From Pectinatus haikarae (GTDB taxonomy: Bacteria > Bacillota > Negativicutes > Selenomonadales > Selenomonadaceae), in NCBI RefSeq assembly GCF_015732185.1, contig NZ_WIQM01000008.1:62001-126000 (forward strand): DNA of 64,000 nt. Reading direction: 5' to 3'. Each line of letters starts with the position of its first letter. The stretch's first letter is position 1. Made by a program: the position numbers and the translations under genes. Under the pieces are notes generated by a model, which saw only the letters and a program-made list of their open reading frames with translations, was not told the origin of the DNA and ran no database searches. This document shows, piece after piece, positions 9,015 through 14,355 of this stretch.

Positions 9015-9043
9015 TTGACAGTATAAGAATACATTAATATAAT
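9015..9043 (+). promoter_or_regulatory. Consensus promoter of the glutamate synthase operon
   Basis: TTGACA at 9015-9020 and TATAAT at 9038-9043 are exactly 17 nt apart, a perfect sigma-A consensus. Transcription should start near 9050, giving a leader of ~220 nt before the first gene. Confidence 0.8.
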
Positions 9044-9139
9044 TATATATGCGTCTATTTCCTATCTGCTAGTCGTTCTATATAATTATATTGTTATAGA
9101 TGTTTGTTGAGAGTGGAATCATACCTTATTATTTTTGAG

Positions 9140-9206
9140 AGACTAATCAGCATTGTTGCTGATGCATCATATATTGGTGAATGACCAATATATGATTTTT
9201 TAGTCT
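9140..9206 (+). promoter_or_regulatory. Leader RNA attenuator with hexaloop hairpin and terminator
   Basis: Hairpin 1 has a perfect 6-bp stem (9146-9151 with 9158-9163) and a six-base loop ATTGTT (A at position 1, G at position 4). Hairpin 2 is a 13-bp stem (9166-9178 with 9184-9196) running into six T (9196-9201), a classic terminator. A short outer stem (9140-9145 with 9201-9206) could close the whole. The structure sits 64 nt before the start codon of a nitrogen-assimilation operon. A1/G4 hexaloop hairpins placed before terminators are the targets of ANTAR antiterminator proteins. Hairpin 2 has a 5- or 7-base loop, so the tandem match is only partial. Confidence 0.6.
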
Positions 9207-9269
9207 ATAAAATTAATCCGTTTTATTTTGAAATTTTCTTATTGTGTATTATTTTGGGGGCGAACAATA

Positions 9270-10376
9270 ATGTGTAGAATTGGTTCAATAAAAAGCAAAG
9301 TGGCTTTCAGTCCATCAAAGGCTTTATATCTTATGCTGCCGCAGCAGGAAGGCCATGATAACTCAGGTTTTGCTATGGTCATGCAGGATCTGTATGGCAT
9401 TTTCACGCCATATAAGGATAAGCCGCTTTTATCGCTCGCCTGTACACAGCGTGGTGCGCAAATGGTCGAAGACTTTATGGACAGCCATAATTTTGAACAG
9501 GTAGCCGAATGGATCCCTGTTCCCAATGATCAGCCGGGACTTGACATAAAAGCCATGCCATATTACATCTTCCGCAACTATGATTATCCCGAATATTATC
9601 GTGATAAAACCATGGCTGAAAAAGAAAAGCTTCTGCTTGATATACGGCTCAAGCTTCGCGAAATATTGGAAACGGCTGGTGAAGGCTATGTTTACTCCTT
9701 CTGGCCTGATGTCTTAACACTGAAAGAAATAGGCGACCCGCGCGACATTGCCACATACTTTCGCCTTTGGGACGATAATGGCTGCCTGATGGCCAAAAGT
9801 GTCGTTGTCCAGTGCCGCCAAAACACCAATTATGATATTGTGCGTTATGCCGCTCACCCGTTTTTCCTGCAGGGATACACTCTTTGTGCAAACGGAGAAA
9901 ATACCTTTTATACCAAAAACAAAGAATTCCAGAAATCTCTGCATAAGGGTTATGTCGGTTTCGAATCAGATTCGCAAAATTTTCTCTATACGCTGCATTA
10001 TGTGCTGCATGAATTAAAATGGCCTATAAAATACTATAAGCATGTTATAACACCGCTGCCTTTCGCCGAAATAGACCAGCGTGAAGACAAAGATGTATTA
10101 AAAGCAATCAGACAGTCTCTTGCCAATCTGGAAATAAACGGTCCCAACACAATCATTGCCAATCTTCCCGACGGACGCATGCTGACCTGCTGTGACTCTA
10201 AAAAACTCCGCCCGGTAGTGGTCGGACAGACGGAAGATACAGTAGCTATCGCTTCCGAAGTATGCGGGCTTAATGAAATAATGCCTGATCGTGACATGAC
10301 AAAAGATATTTATCCTAACGAACGAGAAGTTGTCGTTATCGACAATGAGCTGGAGGTACAAAGATGGAAGCAGTAA
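9270..10376 (+). CDS. Glutamate synthase, glutamine amidotransferase (class II) subunit
   Basis: This is the glutaminase part of a split, archaeal-type glutamate synthase. The start at 9270 is fixed by two facts: GGGGG lies 9 nt upstream, and the protein then begins MCRIGSIKSK, putting the nucleophile Cys at position 2 as class II amidotransferases require. GHDNSGFAMV follows, as in the GltB N-terminal domain. The frame is open further upstream, but a longer product would bury the Cys. At ~368 residues it holds only this domain. It overlaps the next gene by 13 nt. It releases ammonia from glutamine for transfer to 2-oxoglutarate on the next subunit. Confidence 0.88.
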   Translation: MCRIGSIKSKVAFSPSKALYLMLPQQEGHDNSGFAMVMQDLYGIFTPYKDKPLLSLACTQRGAQMVEDFMDSHNFEQVAEWIPVPNDQPGLDIKAMPYYIFRNYDYPEYYRDKTMAEKEKLLLDIRLKLREILETAGEGYVYSFWPDVLTLKEIGDPRDIATYFRLWDDNGCLMAKSVVVQCRQNTNYDIVRYAAHPFFLQGYTLCANGENTFYTKNKEFQKSLHKGYVGFESDSQNFLYTLHYVLHELKWPIKYYKHVITPLPFAEIDQREDKDVLKAIRQSLANLEINGPNTIIANLPDGRMLTCCDSKKLRPVVVGQTEDTVAIASEVCGLNEIMPDRDMTKDIYPNEREVVVIDNELEVQRWKQ

Positions 10377-11995
10377 AATCACAAGACATCAGCAAAGCTG
10401 ATCTCAAATGGAATATAGAGCACATCATGGAACGCTGTACAATGTGCGGCAGCTGCATTTCGACCTGTACTCTCGGTGCTATCAAAGCCGATGTCATTCG
10501 TGTTGACAAAACATATTCGGATGATATGAAACCCAGCCCGCGCCGCACACACAGAACTATTCCCATTATCAAACAAGTGAGCACTATTGGCAATGCCTGC
10601 GTCGGCTGCGGCATGTGCGCCAAAGTCTGCCCGAACAATGCGATCCGGCCTGTCAGAAACAGTGACAGCAGACAGACCCTCTTATCGCGTGATGCCGGCC
10701 CTGTAAAACGTGGCGGCAGAACCAACCTGAATGCACAGCGCACTCTAGACCACATAATAGTGGGCCGTATCAGCCAGATGACAGACCCTTCACTTGATTC
10801 GATCAGACATACATTTGATATACGGTCTCCTTTCGGGCGTGTTCTGCCGGCCAGCGATCTTCCCTTCAGCCTGCAGGATGGCAAGCTGGTCATGGCGCAT
10901 AAAGCACCTCCGGTCCGCTCCATCTATCCGCTCATCTTTTCCGATATGTCTATAGGAGCTTTATCCACTCGCGCTTGGGAAGCAGTGGCTATGGCAGTGG
11001 CATATTTAAACGAAAAATGCGATCTTCCCGTACGCATGAGCTCCGGTGAAGGCGGCATGCCTATCAAGCTGCTCGAATCTGAACAGCTGAAATACATGAT
11101 TTTGCAAATTGCTTCCGGTCATTTCGGCTGGAACAGGATAGTTAAGGCTATGCCCCGCATGAAAACCGATCCTGCCGGTGTTTTAATAAAAATCGGGCAG
11201 GGTGCTAAACCAGGCGACGGCGGTCTTCTCCAGGCTGCCAAAGTAGCCGAACACGTACAGGCAATCCGCGGCGTCCCGAAAGCCACACTTTCCTCACCGC
11301 CTAATCATCAGGGACTGTATTCTATAGAGGAATCTGTGCAAAAGATGCATTTATCGCTCAACGCGGCGTTCGGATTCAGAGTCCCCGTCGCCATAAAATG
11401 TGCGGCATCAGCAACTTCCGTGTCAGTCTATAATAATTTGCTGCGTGATCCGTATAAAATCTGCGGCGGTTTCTTTATAGACGGCATACAAGGCGGCACC
11501 GGTGCCGCAAATGAAATATCACTTGATCATACAGGTCATCCCATAGTATCTAAAATCCGTGACTGCTATCTGGCCGCTGTAAAGCAGGGTCTGCAAGGGC
11601 AGATTCCCCTTTACGGCGGCGGCGGAATAGGCATGACAGGCAATGCCGCCGCTGACGCCTTTAAAATGATTTGTCTTGGCGCCAATGGTGTATTCGTCGG
11701 CAAAATGCTTATTCAGCTGCTCGGCTGCGTGGGCAACGAAGAGGGTCGCTGCAATGCCTGCAATACAGGCAAATGCCCGACCGGCATCTGCACACAGGAC
11801 CCGCGTCTTGTCAAACGTCTTGATATAGACCGCGGTGCTCAGAAAATAGTAGACTATGTGCTTACCTTCGACAAAGAACTTCGCAAACTGATGGCACCTA
11901 TAGGCAACAGCACTCTGCCGGTAGGCCGCAGTGATGCTTTAGTTTCCACAGACAAGTCTATAGCCGAACAGCTGGGAATTCAATATGTATGCTGA
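10364..11995 (+). CDS. gltB: Glutamate synthase, FMN-binding subunit with 2[4Fe-4S] ferredoxin domain
   Basis: The protein begins with a two-cluster ferredoxin domain (CTMCGSCISTC near residue 25 and CVGCGMCAKVCP near residue 80). The FMN-binding glutamate synthase core follows: SDMSIGALSTRAWEA, RMSSGEGG, IKIGQGAKPGDGG, DGIQGGTGAA and YGGGGIGMTG. Near the end CNACNTGKCPTGIC carries the cysteines for the [3Fe-4S] cluster. This subunit joins ammonia to 2-oxoglutarate. The fused ferredoxin domain and the lack of amidotransferase and GXGXG domains match archaeal-type split enzymes. Start ATG at 10364 overlaps the amidotransferase gene, indicating coupling. Confidence 0.9.
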   Translation: MEAVKSQDISKADLKWNIEHIMERCTMCGSCISTCTLGAIKADVIRVDKTYSDDMKPSPRRTHRTIPIIKQVSTIGNACVGCGMCAKVCPNNAIRPVRNSDSRQTLLSRDAGPVKRGGRTNLNAQRTLDHIIVGRISQMTDPSLDSIRHTFDIRSPFGRVLPASDLPFSLQDGKLVMAHKAPPVRSIYPLIFSDMSIGALSTRAWEAVAMAVAYLNEKCDLPVRMSSGEGGMPIKLLESEQLKYMILQIASGHFGWNRIVKAMPRMKTDPAGVLIKIGQGAKPGDGGLLQAAKVAEHVQAIRGVPKATLSSPPNHQGLYSIEESVQKMHLSLNAAFGFRVPVAIKCAASATSVSVYNNLLRDPYKICGGFFIDGIQGGTGAANEISLDHTGHPIVSKIRDCYLAAVKQGLQGQIPLYGGGGIGMTGNAAADAFKMICLGANGVFVGKMLIQLLGCVGNEEGRCNACNTGKCPTGICTQDPRLVKRLDIDRGAQKIVDYVLTFDKELRKLMAPIGNSTLPVGRSDALVSTDKSIAEQLGIQYVC

Positions 11996-12012: not shown

Positions 12013-14355
12013 ATGTTTAAGATAGATACTCTAAAAGGACACGATCGCATGTCCACACAGGATTTACTGCTCGCTGTCGGCAGTGCCGTGGCAAACGGCG
12101 AAACTGATTTTGAAATAGCGGCTTCCGGTCAGCATGATATCGGCGGTCCGTTATGGCATCCCGAAGGAAAGACGCTTCATTTCCACGTCACCAATGCCGG
12201 TCAGCGGCTCGGCTCAATGTGTCTCAATAATACAGAAATTATTGCCGATGGGTCAGTATCCGCAGATGTAGGCTGGCTCAACGCCGGCGGGAAAATAGTG
12301 GTAAAAGGAGACGCCGGTGACACTGCAGGCCATTGTTCATCAGGCGGCAAAATATACATCGGCGGGCGCGGCGGCACACGCACGGGATCTTTGATGAAAC
12401 ACGATCCGCTCTATGAAGAACCCCAGCTTTGGATATTGAAAAATGTCGGCAGCTTTGCCTTCGAATTCATGGGTGGCGGACGTGCCGTGGTCTGCGGCTT
12501 CGACAGCGAAGAATTTGATTCCGTACTGGGCGAGCGTCCCTGTGTAGGTATGGTAGGCGGCACTGTATATTTCCGCGGTCATTCACATGATCATCCTGCC
12601 GATATTCTTCTTGAAGAACTTGATAAAGATGATATTGCCTTTCTTGCGGAAGGCATGGATAAATTCCTAGAATCGATCGGCAAGGAAAATCTGCATAATG
12701 ACCTTTCCGATTGGAGTCAATGGCATAAGCTGCGTCCTCTTACCTTTGATGAAAAGCAGAATGCAGATACAAAGCATACTGACATGCGTTCTTTCCGTCT
12801 CAATGAATGGATCAAGGGTGGTATGTTCAGTGATGTTGCCGTTGATGATTTTGCCGTCAAAAATCTGGTAGAAAAAGGTCTTTACCGCCAGCATATTCCG
12901 GTCTGGAACAATGCCAAATACGCAGCACCATGCGAATTTGCCTGCCCGGCACATATCCCGACACAGCTGAGATATAAATTGCTCCGCACCGAAAAGCAAG
13001 AAGAAGCAACCAAACTGATTCTTGAATATACCCCGTTTCCCGGTTCGGTATGCGCCTCTGTCTGTCCCAATCCGTGTATGGATGCATGTACACGCGCTAA
13101 GATAGATCAGTCTGTCCAGATCGGTCCTTTGGGTTTTCAGTCCGTATATGCCAAACTTGATATAACCTCGAAAAAAACAGGCAAAAAAATAGCTGTCATA
13201 GGCGGCGGTGTTGCCGGGCTTGGAGCCGCATGGCAGCTCATCCAGCGTGGTCATGATGTAACTGTATACGATGAGGATGATCATATCGGCGGTAAGCTTG
13301 AACAAGTCATTCCGCGTGCACGTCTTCCGCATGAACTGCTGCAGGCAGAGCTTAAGCGAATCGAAGATGCCGGTGTAAAATTTGTTCCCAAATTCAAAGT
13401 TGATGCCGAAAAATTTACCGCTATAAGACAAAACAATGATGCGGTGGTTTTAGCCACCGGCGGTCATAAGTCAAGATTTTTCCCTTGGGAAGGCGCCGAA
13501 AAACTGACAATGGGCCTGACCTTCCTGAAAGCTATAAACCGCGGGGAACACCCCTATGTGGGCAAAAATGTTATTGTTATCGGCTGCGGCAATTCCGGTA
13601 TGGACACAGCTCGCGGAGCTTACGATATGGGTGCTGAAAAAGTCACATGCATCGACGTGCAAAAACCGGCTGCTTTTCAAAATGAAATCGACCATATAGA
13701 ACAAATGGGCGGCGAGCTTATATGGCCTTTCATGACTTCTAAAATAACCGATGAGGGGATTTATGATAATGCGGGAAAATTCATAGCAGGCGACATGGTC
13801 ATCGTTTCTATAGGTGAAGCGCCTATCTTGGATTATCTGCCGCAGGATGACAAAATAAAAAAATTCCGCGACTGGCTCGTTCCCGGTAAGGACAATACCA
13901 TTTTAGACGGAATATTTGTTGCCGGCGACGTGATAAAACCGGGCAGACTGGTAGATGCTATCGGTTCCGGCAACAAAGCCGCCTATTATGCGGATGCCTA
14001 TGTAATGCGTAAAGATGTTCCCGCTTTTCCCGAAAAAAGAGAAGTTCCTGCCGATATGCTTGGCAAAGAATATTTTGCAAAATATCACCATGAAGATTTA
14101 CCGGAACCGCTCGGTGATGTAGATCGCTGTGTAAGCTGCGGTACTTGCCGTGACTGCAGGACATGCCTTGACTCCTGCCCTGAAAAAGCTATTGACCGCA
14201 TCGATCACGGCATGGGTATTATTGAATACAGATCAGATCCCGATAAATGCATAGGCTGCGGTATTTGTTCCGGTGTCTGCCCCTGCGGCATTTGGGAGCT
14301 CAATGACAATCCCGAACCTATAAAGATGTATCGCACCGGCAGCAAAGCCGAATAA
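12013..14355 (+). CDS. gltD: Glutamate synthase GXGXG domain fused to GltD-like NAD(P)H oxidoreductase and ferredoxin
   Basis: This is a three-part fusion of 780 residues. Residues ~1-240 form a GXGXG beta-helix domain (repeats such as GGKIVVKGDAGDTAGH and GGKIYIGGRGGTRTG), normally the C-terminus of GltB. Residues ~300-700 form a GltD-like flavoprotein with a cysteine-rich N-terminal part (CEFACPAHIPTQLRY, CASVCPNPCMDAC), a FAD site IAVIGGGVAGLGAAW and an NAD(P)H site VIVIGCGNSGMDTARG. The last ~70 residues hold a two-cluster ferredoxin (CVSCGTCRDCRTCLDSCP and CIGCGICSGVCPCG). It should feed electrons from NAD(P)H or ferredoxin to the FMN subunit. It is the third gene of the operon. Confidence 0.88.
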   Translation: MFKIDTLKGHDRMSTQDLLLAVGSAVANGETDFEIAASGQHDIGGPLWHPEGKTLHFHVTNAGQRLGSMCLNNTEIIADGSVSADVGWLNAGGKIVVKGDAGDTAGHCSSGGKIYIGGRGGTRTGSLMKHDPLYEEPQLWILKNVGSFAFEFMGGGRAVVCGFDSEEFDSVLGERPCVGMVGGTVYFRGHSHDHPADILLEELDKDDIAFLAEGMDKFLESIGKENLHNDLSDWSQWHKLRPLTFDEKQNADTKHTDMRSFRLNEWIKGGMFSDVAVDDFAVKNLVEKGLYRQHIPVWNNAKYAAPCEFACPAHIPTQLRYKLLRTEKQEEATKLILEYTPFPGSVCASVCPNPCMDACTRAKIDQSVQIGPLGFQSVYAKLDITSKKTGKKIAVIGGGVAGLGAAWQLIQRGHDVTVYDEDDHIGGKLEQVIPRARLPHELLQAELKRIEDAGVKFVPKFKVDAEKFTAIRQNNDAVVLATGGHKSRFFPWEGAEKLTMGLTFLKAINRGEHPYVGKNVIVIGCGNSGMDTARGAYDMGAEKVTCIDVQKPAAFQNEIDHIEQMGGELIWPFMTSKITDEGIYDNAGKFIAGDMVIVSIGEAPILDYLPQDDKIKKFRDWLVPGKDNTILDGIFVAGDVIKPGRLVDAIGSGNKAAYYADAYVMRKDVPAFPEKREVPADMLGKEYFAKYHHEDLPEPLGDVDRCVSCGTCRDCRTCLDSCPEKAIDRIDHGMGIIEYRSDPDKCIGCGICSGVCPCGIWELNDNPEPIKMYRTGSKAE

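Follow-up and report, generated by a model that had tools for sequence, protein, structure and literature searches.

Does the leader that precedes the glutamate synthase operon of Pectinatus haikarae act as a transcription attenuator under the control of an ANTAR protein, and if so, on what RNA element would such a protein act? The question arises from a hairpin with an A1/G4 hexaloop that stands immediately before an intrinsic terminator upstream of gltB, in a stretch of 64,000 nucleotides (hereafter the window, i.e., the whole of the DNA analyzed). A small A1/G4 hexaloop hairpin, an intrinsic terminator and nitrogen genes are likewise described for EutV and the eut genes of Enterococcus faecalis, NasR and nasF, and AmiR and amiE in the available sections of PMC3369931 and PMC8934654, and EutV, as described there, is a two-component ANTAR protein of the kind found in this genome. 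In the corresponding part of PMC3369931, ANTAR leaders are predicted for glutamate synthase genes in Desulfotomaculum reducens; this computational prediction has the same target function, but it used a dual-hairpin model and concerns another bacterial group. A review (PMC6316151, in its available text) describes NitR of Clostridium saccharobutylicum, which induces GS/GOGAT genes by ANTAR antitermination on nitrogen limitation, and thus resembles what is proposed here, an ANTAR protein acting on GS/GOGAT genes. Since glutamate synthase is thus already known as a target of ANTAR control, the gltB leader alone adds little that is new.

Reading of the sequence bore out the anatomy given in a preliminary description of this DNA: a consensus promoter, a leader of about 220 nt (from the expected start site to the ATG at 9270 of the first glutamate synthase open reading frame), a 6-bp hairpin with loop ATTGTT, a gap of 2 nt, and a 13-bp terminator with six T (Table 1). 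The hairpin lies about 95 nt away from the expected start site and consists of ATCAGC (9146-9151), the loop (9152-9157) and GCTGAT (9158-9163). The terminator is composed of a 5' arm, ATCATATATTGGT (9166-9178), a loop (9179-9183) and a 3' arm, ACCAATATATGAT (9184-9196); its six T occupy 9196-9201, the first of them being counted within the stem. As already remarked in the preliminary description, this second loop is not a fitting hexaloop. Three glutamate synthase genes follow, the first of which is 95-96% identical to its counterparts in the closest named relatives, Pectinatus cerevisiiphilus, P. frisingensis and P. brassicae.

Table 1. Features of the gltB locus (positions in the window) and other hexaloop leaders of the same genome
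Feature	Position	Strand	Basis
Consensus promoter: TTGACA (9015-9020), 17-nt spacer, TATAAT (9038-9043)	9015..9043	+	sequence reading; kept in 5/5 aligned genus members
Outer stem around both hairpins: AGACTAA (9140-9146) / TTAGTCT (9200-9206)	9140..9206	+	fold and alignment reading
ANTAR-type hairpin ATCAGC[ATTGTT]GCTGAT, loop with A1 and G4	9146..9163	+	reading, folding, alignment, Markov test
Intrinsic terminator: 13-bp stem, loop GAATG, six T	9166..9201	+	reading, folding, alignment
First operon gene, amidotransferase-like, MCRIG start, 368 aa	9270..10376	+	no Pfam match; weak NCBIfam purF amidotransferase match below cut-off
Glutamate synthase central subunit, Glu_synthase and 4Fe-4S	10364..11995	+	PF01645, E 1.8e-62
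Glutamate synthase subunit: GXGXG domain and NAD(P)/FAD oxidoreductase	12013..14355	+	domain search
Hexaloop leader before amtB	this genome		pattern and reading
Hexaloop leader before GlnH-like (glutamine-) binding protein	this genome		pattern and reading
Hexaloop leader before ethanolamine permease	this genome		TIGR00908
Hexaloop leader before xanthine permease	this genome		TIGR03173
Hexaloop leader before diaminopropionate ammonia-lyase	this genome		TIGR03528
Hexaloop leader before SSF symporter	this genome		pattern and reading
Hexaloop leader before hybrid histidine kinase	this genome		pattern and reading
Hexaloop leader before second ANTAR two-component operon (L315)	G000:C6:404237		pattern and reading

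Both hairpins were recovered by the folding program and dominate the predicted fold, and the fold of 9046-9210 beats all 200 of 200 dinucleotide shuffles (z -3.68). When 9046-9165 was re-drawn 20,000 times from a first-order Markov model, 1.9% of the re-draws had an AnnGnn hexaloop on a stem of at least 5 bp within the final 36 nt, and 0.7% had one on at least 6 bp; the former figure is by itself weak evidence for a gltB hexaloop. Among 18 terminator-like sites found by script in the window (8 on the + strand and 10 on the - strand), none but the gltB terminator has an AnnGnn hexaloop on at least 5 bp next to it. The folding program draws the loop as a tetraloop, because A1 can pair with U6. 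It also shows that the hairpin, when forced in the fold, is compatible with the full terminator at a cost of 0.0 kcal/mol. The proposal that the hairpin is placed so that protein binding prevents the terminator therefore stands at gltB only as abutment; a mutually exclusive fold is not found. The outer stem that surrounds both hairpins can pair only once polymerase is past the terminator, and it is weaker in two of the five genus members (L006 and L007) when the alignment is read by eye.

The preliminary description had named relatives that lose the first hairpin and keep the terminator as an observation against its reading. Instead, both elements are retained in all five Pectinatus-group genomes (this one and four others), with a terminator stem that is nearly identical and a terminator loop that varies. 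The gltB loops of these five members are ATTGTT, ACTGTT, ATTGTT, ATCGAT and AATGTT, i.e., positions 1, 4 and 6 are constant and positions 2, 3 and 5 variable. The constancy of U6 in all five means that closure to a tetraloop by an A1-U6 pair is possible throughout. Together with the preference of the folding program and the compatibility of hairpin and terminator, this favors an alternative that we regard as unlikely: the gltB hairpin would be no ANTAR site but an AU-closed tetraloop that pauses polymerase or stabilizes the RNA, with glnN, amtB and the other leaders as the real targets and the gltB terminator controlled by something else, or uncontrolled. Against it, A1 and G4 are invariant though adjacent loop positions vary. 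In addition, four leaders from other genera (L008, L009, L012 and L019) retain AAYGNN hexaloops at this place beside unlike terminators, namely CGGC[AATGGT]GCTG, TCGGC[AATGGC]GCTGA, TCGGC[AACGGA]GCCGG and TGCGC[AATGAT]GCGTA (that of L012 was assigned by reading), and in L009 and L012 A1 cannot pair with position 6. These hexaloops are about 2 nt from their terminators or overlap them by 1-2 nt. In the majority of the 91 distinct gltB leaders that were read, no such hairpin was seen next to a terminator.

A different conserved element was seen in many Selenomonadaceae gltB upstream regions (e.g., L008, L009, L010, L027 and L030), in which the block ACAAATGT is located 3' of the promoter. It occurs exactly in 20 of 89 distinct 220-nt upstream regions, compared with a mean of 0.85 and a maximum of 3 in 60 re-draws.

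A terminator-bearing leader before a biosynthetic operon could also be read by a ribosome, a tRNA or a small ligand, and a 12-codon open reading frame is seen to start at 9100. Attenuation through a leader peptide, a T-box or a riboswitch is nonetheless a most improbable account. The frame at 9100 is not conserved and meets a stop after three codons in L004. No Rfam family was detected at threshold in the leader, the sole match in the window being a tRNA, and an Rfam search of 20 related loci returned only tRNA and 5S rRNA.

Which protein might read the hexaloop instead? As stated in the preliminary description, no ANTAR gene lies in the window, where ANTAR searches gave no match; that description would have lost its footing had the genome encoded no ANTAR protein, but two ANTAR response regulators are encoded elsewhere in it (E 1.1e-19 and 1.6e-11), each adjoining a HisKA_2 kinase. 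One of them (L001) aligns over nearly its full length with EutV (6wsh, E 1.8e-42). We compared it with the ten RNA contacts of EutV given in the available text of PMC8934654, using a numbering offset of 2 that was set by reading. Seven are identical (R142, K143, K149, E160, Y164, M172 and R175) and three are changed (K147 to R, R168 to Q, and N173 to A), so that the G4-stacking tyrosine, equivalent to Tyr164, and the methionine plug are retained. The second protein (L002) has a histidine where EutV has Tyr164.

The preliminary description had pointed to leaders of glnA or amtB in the same genome as the place to look for the motif again, and both reading and pattern search were positive. In both the glnN (glutamine synthetase) and the amtB leader the hairpin runs into a terminator; its sequence is GGC[AATGGC]GCC in the former and AGGC[AGCGCA]GCCT in the latter. 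Within the genus, the five amtB loops are AGCGCA, AGCGCA, AGCGTA, AACGCA and AACGCA, and the five glnN loops, collected with A or G required at position 1 and G at position 4, are AATGGC, AATGGT, AATGGA, AATGGG and AATGGA. When the whole genome was searched for GGC[AnnGnn]GCC with a T-run behind it, 37 matches were obtained, versus 2 in the backward control, with overlapping T-run variants counted. These matches represent 22 distinct places, in 8 of which the hairpin was seen by reading to overlap the 5' arm of a terminator (Table 1). With glnN and gltB, the total in this genome is ten leaders, and the regulon may exceed this number because the search covered GGC/GCC stems only. A shorter hairpin pattern occurs at 174 places in this genome, of which 100 were listed and 30 fetched. 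Since the second kinase-ANTAR operon has a hexaloop-terminator leader of its own, it may be autoregulated or subject to the first system.

With the hairpin forced, the full terminator is excluded in each of the nine leaders other than that of gltB, at a cost of 1.8-14.8 kcal/mol. The stretches folded for compact leaders with one hexaloop and a terminator measure 56-93 nt. Two of the nine have the loop AATGAT, in which A1-U6 closure is possible too. Of the ten, the gltB leader is the least typical, in that its hairpin abuts the terminator and does not overlap it, and its loop allows A1-U6 pairing. Its distance from the start site also sets it apart from the leaders of glnN and amtB in this genome, which have a -10-like box close upstream of the hairpin, and this favors the tetraloop alternative; on the other side, glutamate synthase is a natural partner of glnN and amtB. 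A separate role of the gltB hairpin in pausing or RNA stability is possible.

To see how widely the design occurs, we surveyed glnN and amtB leaders of relatives without regard to loop sequence; this loop-blind survey replaced a first glnN terminator scan that was too crude. The loci comprised the 30 best matches of each search and further fetched ones, more amtB matches being in existence. A hexaloop at the foot of the terminator was found in 31 of 59 glnN leaders, with G4 in 30 and A1 in 27 of the 31. Other loop lengths at this position were rarer, with 4 tetraloops, 1 pentaloop, 3 heptaloops and 9 octaloops. Foot hexaloops were found in 23 of 42 amtB leaders, which gave 24 hairpins, 23 with G4 and 22 with A1. 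By reading, the two cases without G4 look like misassigned hairpins. As background, 1.03 million strand-bases (the window and the gltB loci of 80 relatives) contained 18 foot hexaloops under a slightly stricter overlap rule than that of the surveys; three of these had A1 and G4, and one of the three resembles an amtB leader by sequence. We kept 62 hairpins, 53 from relatives and 9 from this genome, which were preselected for G4 (those of amtB also for A2), so that G4 in 62 of 62 reflects selection. Their closing pair is C-G in all 62, the second pair is G-C in 55, U-A in 5 and A-U in 2, and the third is G-C in 61 and G-U in 1.

ANTAR matches were detected in 55 of 60 genomes, this one included, and in 54 they exceeded the curated cut-off. 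A search for diverged ANTAR proteins in the six genomes without one gave only receiver-domain and sub-threshold ANTAR matches. By an automatic criterion (such scans miss hairpins visible by eye, including those at glnN and amtB of this very genome), the glnN hairpin is present in 28 of 53 ANTAR-positive genomes and in 1 of 4 ANTAR-negative genomes; the same run recorded 8 genomes with a foot hexaloop that lacks G4. ANTAR presence and the glnN hairpin thus co-occur loosely by this criterion, a weak association. Neither an ANTAR gene nor a glnN hairpin was found in G011, G015 and G022. Counts of the hairpin plus T-run pattern over the 60 genomes were 932 versus 409 backward in the 54 ANTAR-positive genomes and 59 versus 49 in the 6 ANTAR-negative ones, an enrichment that is suggestive only, because in-gene matches and overlapping T-runs were counted and five Pectinatus-group genomes alone account for 125 versus 8.

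One ANTAR-negative genome, G033 (one contig, 99% completeness), retains a glnN hairpin leader (L196) and gave no ANTAR match that passed the cut-off; amtB and a gltB of this type were not found in it at E 1e-60. Its hairpin may be a relic, or the hairpin may have another reader.

The known systems closest to these leaders differ from them in the number of hexaloops. In the available descriptions of eut, nasF and amiE, two hexaloops are separated by a short linker, whereas here there is one per leader: nine leaders keep a hexaloop that, like P2, overlaps the terminator, and gltB has a hexaloop without terminator overlap. The paired-hexaloop mechanism invoked in the preliminary description was not supported: no second conserved AnnGnn hairpin was found at gltB or upstream of the first in the 53 leaders of relatives and ten of this genome. 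For the relatives, the search covered 40 nt upstream and 3-bp stems that include a G-C pair, and gave none in 53 leaders where re-draws gave an expectation of 1.2; for this genome, it covered 25-45 nt and gave none in ten, with a detector that does recover known hairpins. The room for a recruiting hairpin is small, because by reading a -10-like box often lies within those 40 nt.

At gltB, two candidates for a second hexaloop were considered and rejected. An upstream hairpin, TTAT[ATTGTT]ATAG (loop at 9090), ends about 46 nt before the main hairpin and has A1 and G4 here and in L005 only; by reading, L004 has lost G4, L006 has a disrupted stem, and L007 lacks the hairpin. The other candidate, within the terminator arm, is not conserved.

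This second candidate corresponds to a canonical dual-hexaloop leader, in which 9146-9163 would serve as P1 and the 5' arm of the terminator would provide a weak P2, e.g., TCATAT[ATTGGT]GAATGA. The order of P1 and terminator would match that of nasF in the available part of PMC3369936, and an ATTGG run is present in the terminator arm of all five genus members. We nevertheless consider such a leader very unlikely. By reading, the stem of this P2 candidate is closed by a U-G pair here, contains an A-A mismatch, and is paired still worse in the other genus members, and no AnnGnn hairpin of at least 3 bp occurs within 60 nt downstream of the first in nine gltB leaders.

Since no leader tested has a second hexaloop, these leaders fall outside the dual-hexaloop definition as given in the available sections of PMC3369931. 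In the terms of Ramesh 2012, gltB carries an AnnGnn hexaloop whose stem has 3 bp or more, in a genome that encodes ANTAR proteins, and lacks a second AnnGnn hairpin and an overlap of the hairpin with the 5' arm of the terminator; such an overlap is present in the other nine leaders found here. In the terms of Walshe 2022, G4 is invariant at gltB, yet A1-U6 pairing may shrink the loop to four bases.

Judged by their sequences, the leaders with a single hexaloop appear to function in the manner of ANTAR antiterminators. It is rather likely that Negativicutes possess a nitrogen regulon whose antiterminators have lost the recruiting hairpin, such that one AnnGnn hexaloop at the terminator foot suffices. 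A single hexaloop near the transcript start would then be enough for the ANTAR dimer to outrun termination. If true, this would contradict the rule that antitermination needs two hexaloops.

Within such a regulon, the gltB leader is quite probably the attenuator of the glutamate synthase operon. By default, RNA polymerase would halt at the terminator at 9166-9201. The regulator would most likely be the EutV-like ANTAR protein (L001), activated through phosphorylation by its HisKA_2 kinase, and a dimer of the phosphorylated protein would bind the lone AnnGnn hairpin as it emerges from polymerase. The bound hairpin would prevent closure of the terminator and allow gltB to be transcribed; the binding itself, this direction of control and the signal are inferred. 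In the nine other leaders, the 3' strand of the hairpin lies inside the 5' arm of the terminator, and protein binding to the hairpin would therefore preclude part of the terminator pairing. At gltB, the hairpin stops 2 nt short of the terminator, and the block would presumably be steric.

The possibly new part is the regulon-wide single-hexaloop design. In the available text of PMC8934654 (Walshe 2022), a single G4-bearing hexaloop is sufficient for EutV binding and the binding site is redefined as one hexaloop, while both hexaloops are cited as strictly required in vivo for antitermination of eut. The same text expects single sites where transcribing polymerase imposes no time limit, but the single sites described here stand directly before terminators. 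It also states that the role of single hexaloops calls for further bioinformatic and experimental work. Published searches for ANTAR RNAs (PMC3369931 and PMC8164766, as far as their available sections describe them) used dual-hairpin models and would therefore tend to miss single-hexaloop leaders. In the open-licence PMC literature, neither ANTAR leaders of Negativicutes nor single-hexaloop terminator leaders appeared among the matches listed; as these were diluted by 'Antarctic' papers, the absence of an ANTAR nitrogen circuit of Negativicutes from the literature is a weak indication. The leaders would assign a nitrogen-control circuit to this class, for which the matches listed gave none, and in their compactness they would provide a direct test bed for the action of an ANTAR dimer against a terminator without a recruiting hairpin.

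In some relatives, the ANTAR gene itself adjoins glnN or gltB. The order is glnN, ANTAR gene, small open reading frame and gltB in G005, and ANTAR gene, small open reading frame and gltB in G030; in G034, coordinates place the ANTAR gene next to glnN and gltB. At two loci (L039 and L026), the small open reading frame between the ANTAR gene and gltB is similar (MMALNFRA.../MMALNFRE...), with a length of 116 aa in L026. Finally, in a search confined to loops with A or G at position 1 and G at position 4, two amtB upstream regions (L150 in G046 and L174 in G026) were seen to contain two successive hexaloop-terminator units, which are possible tandem attenuators.
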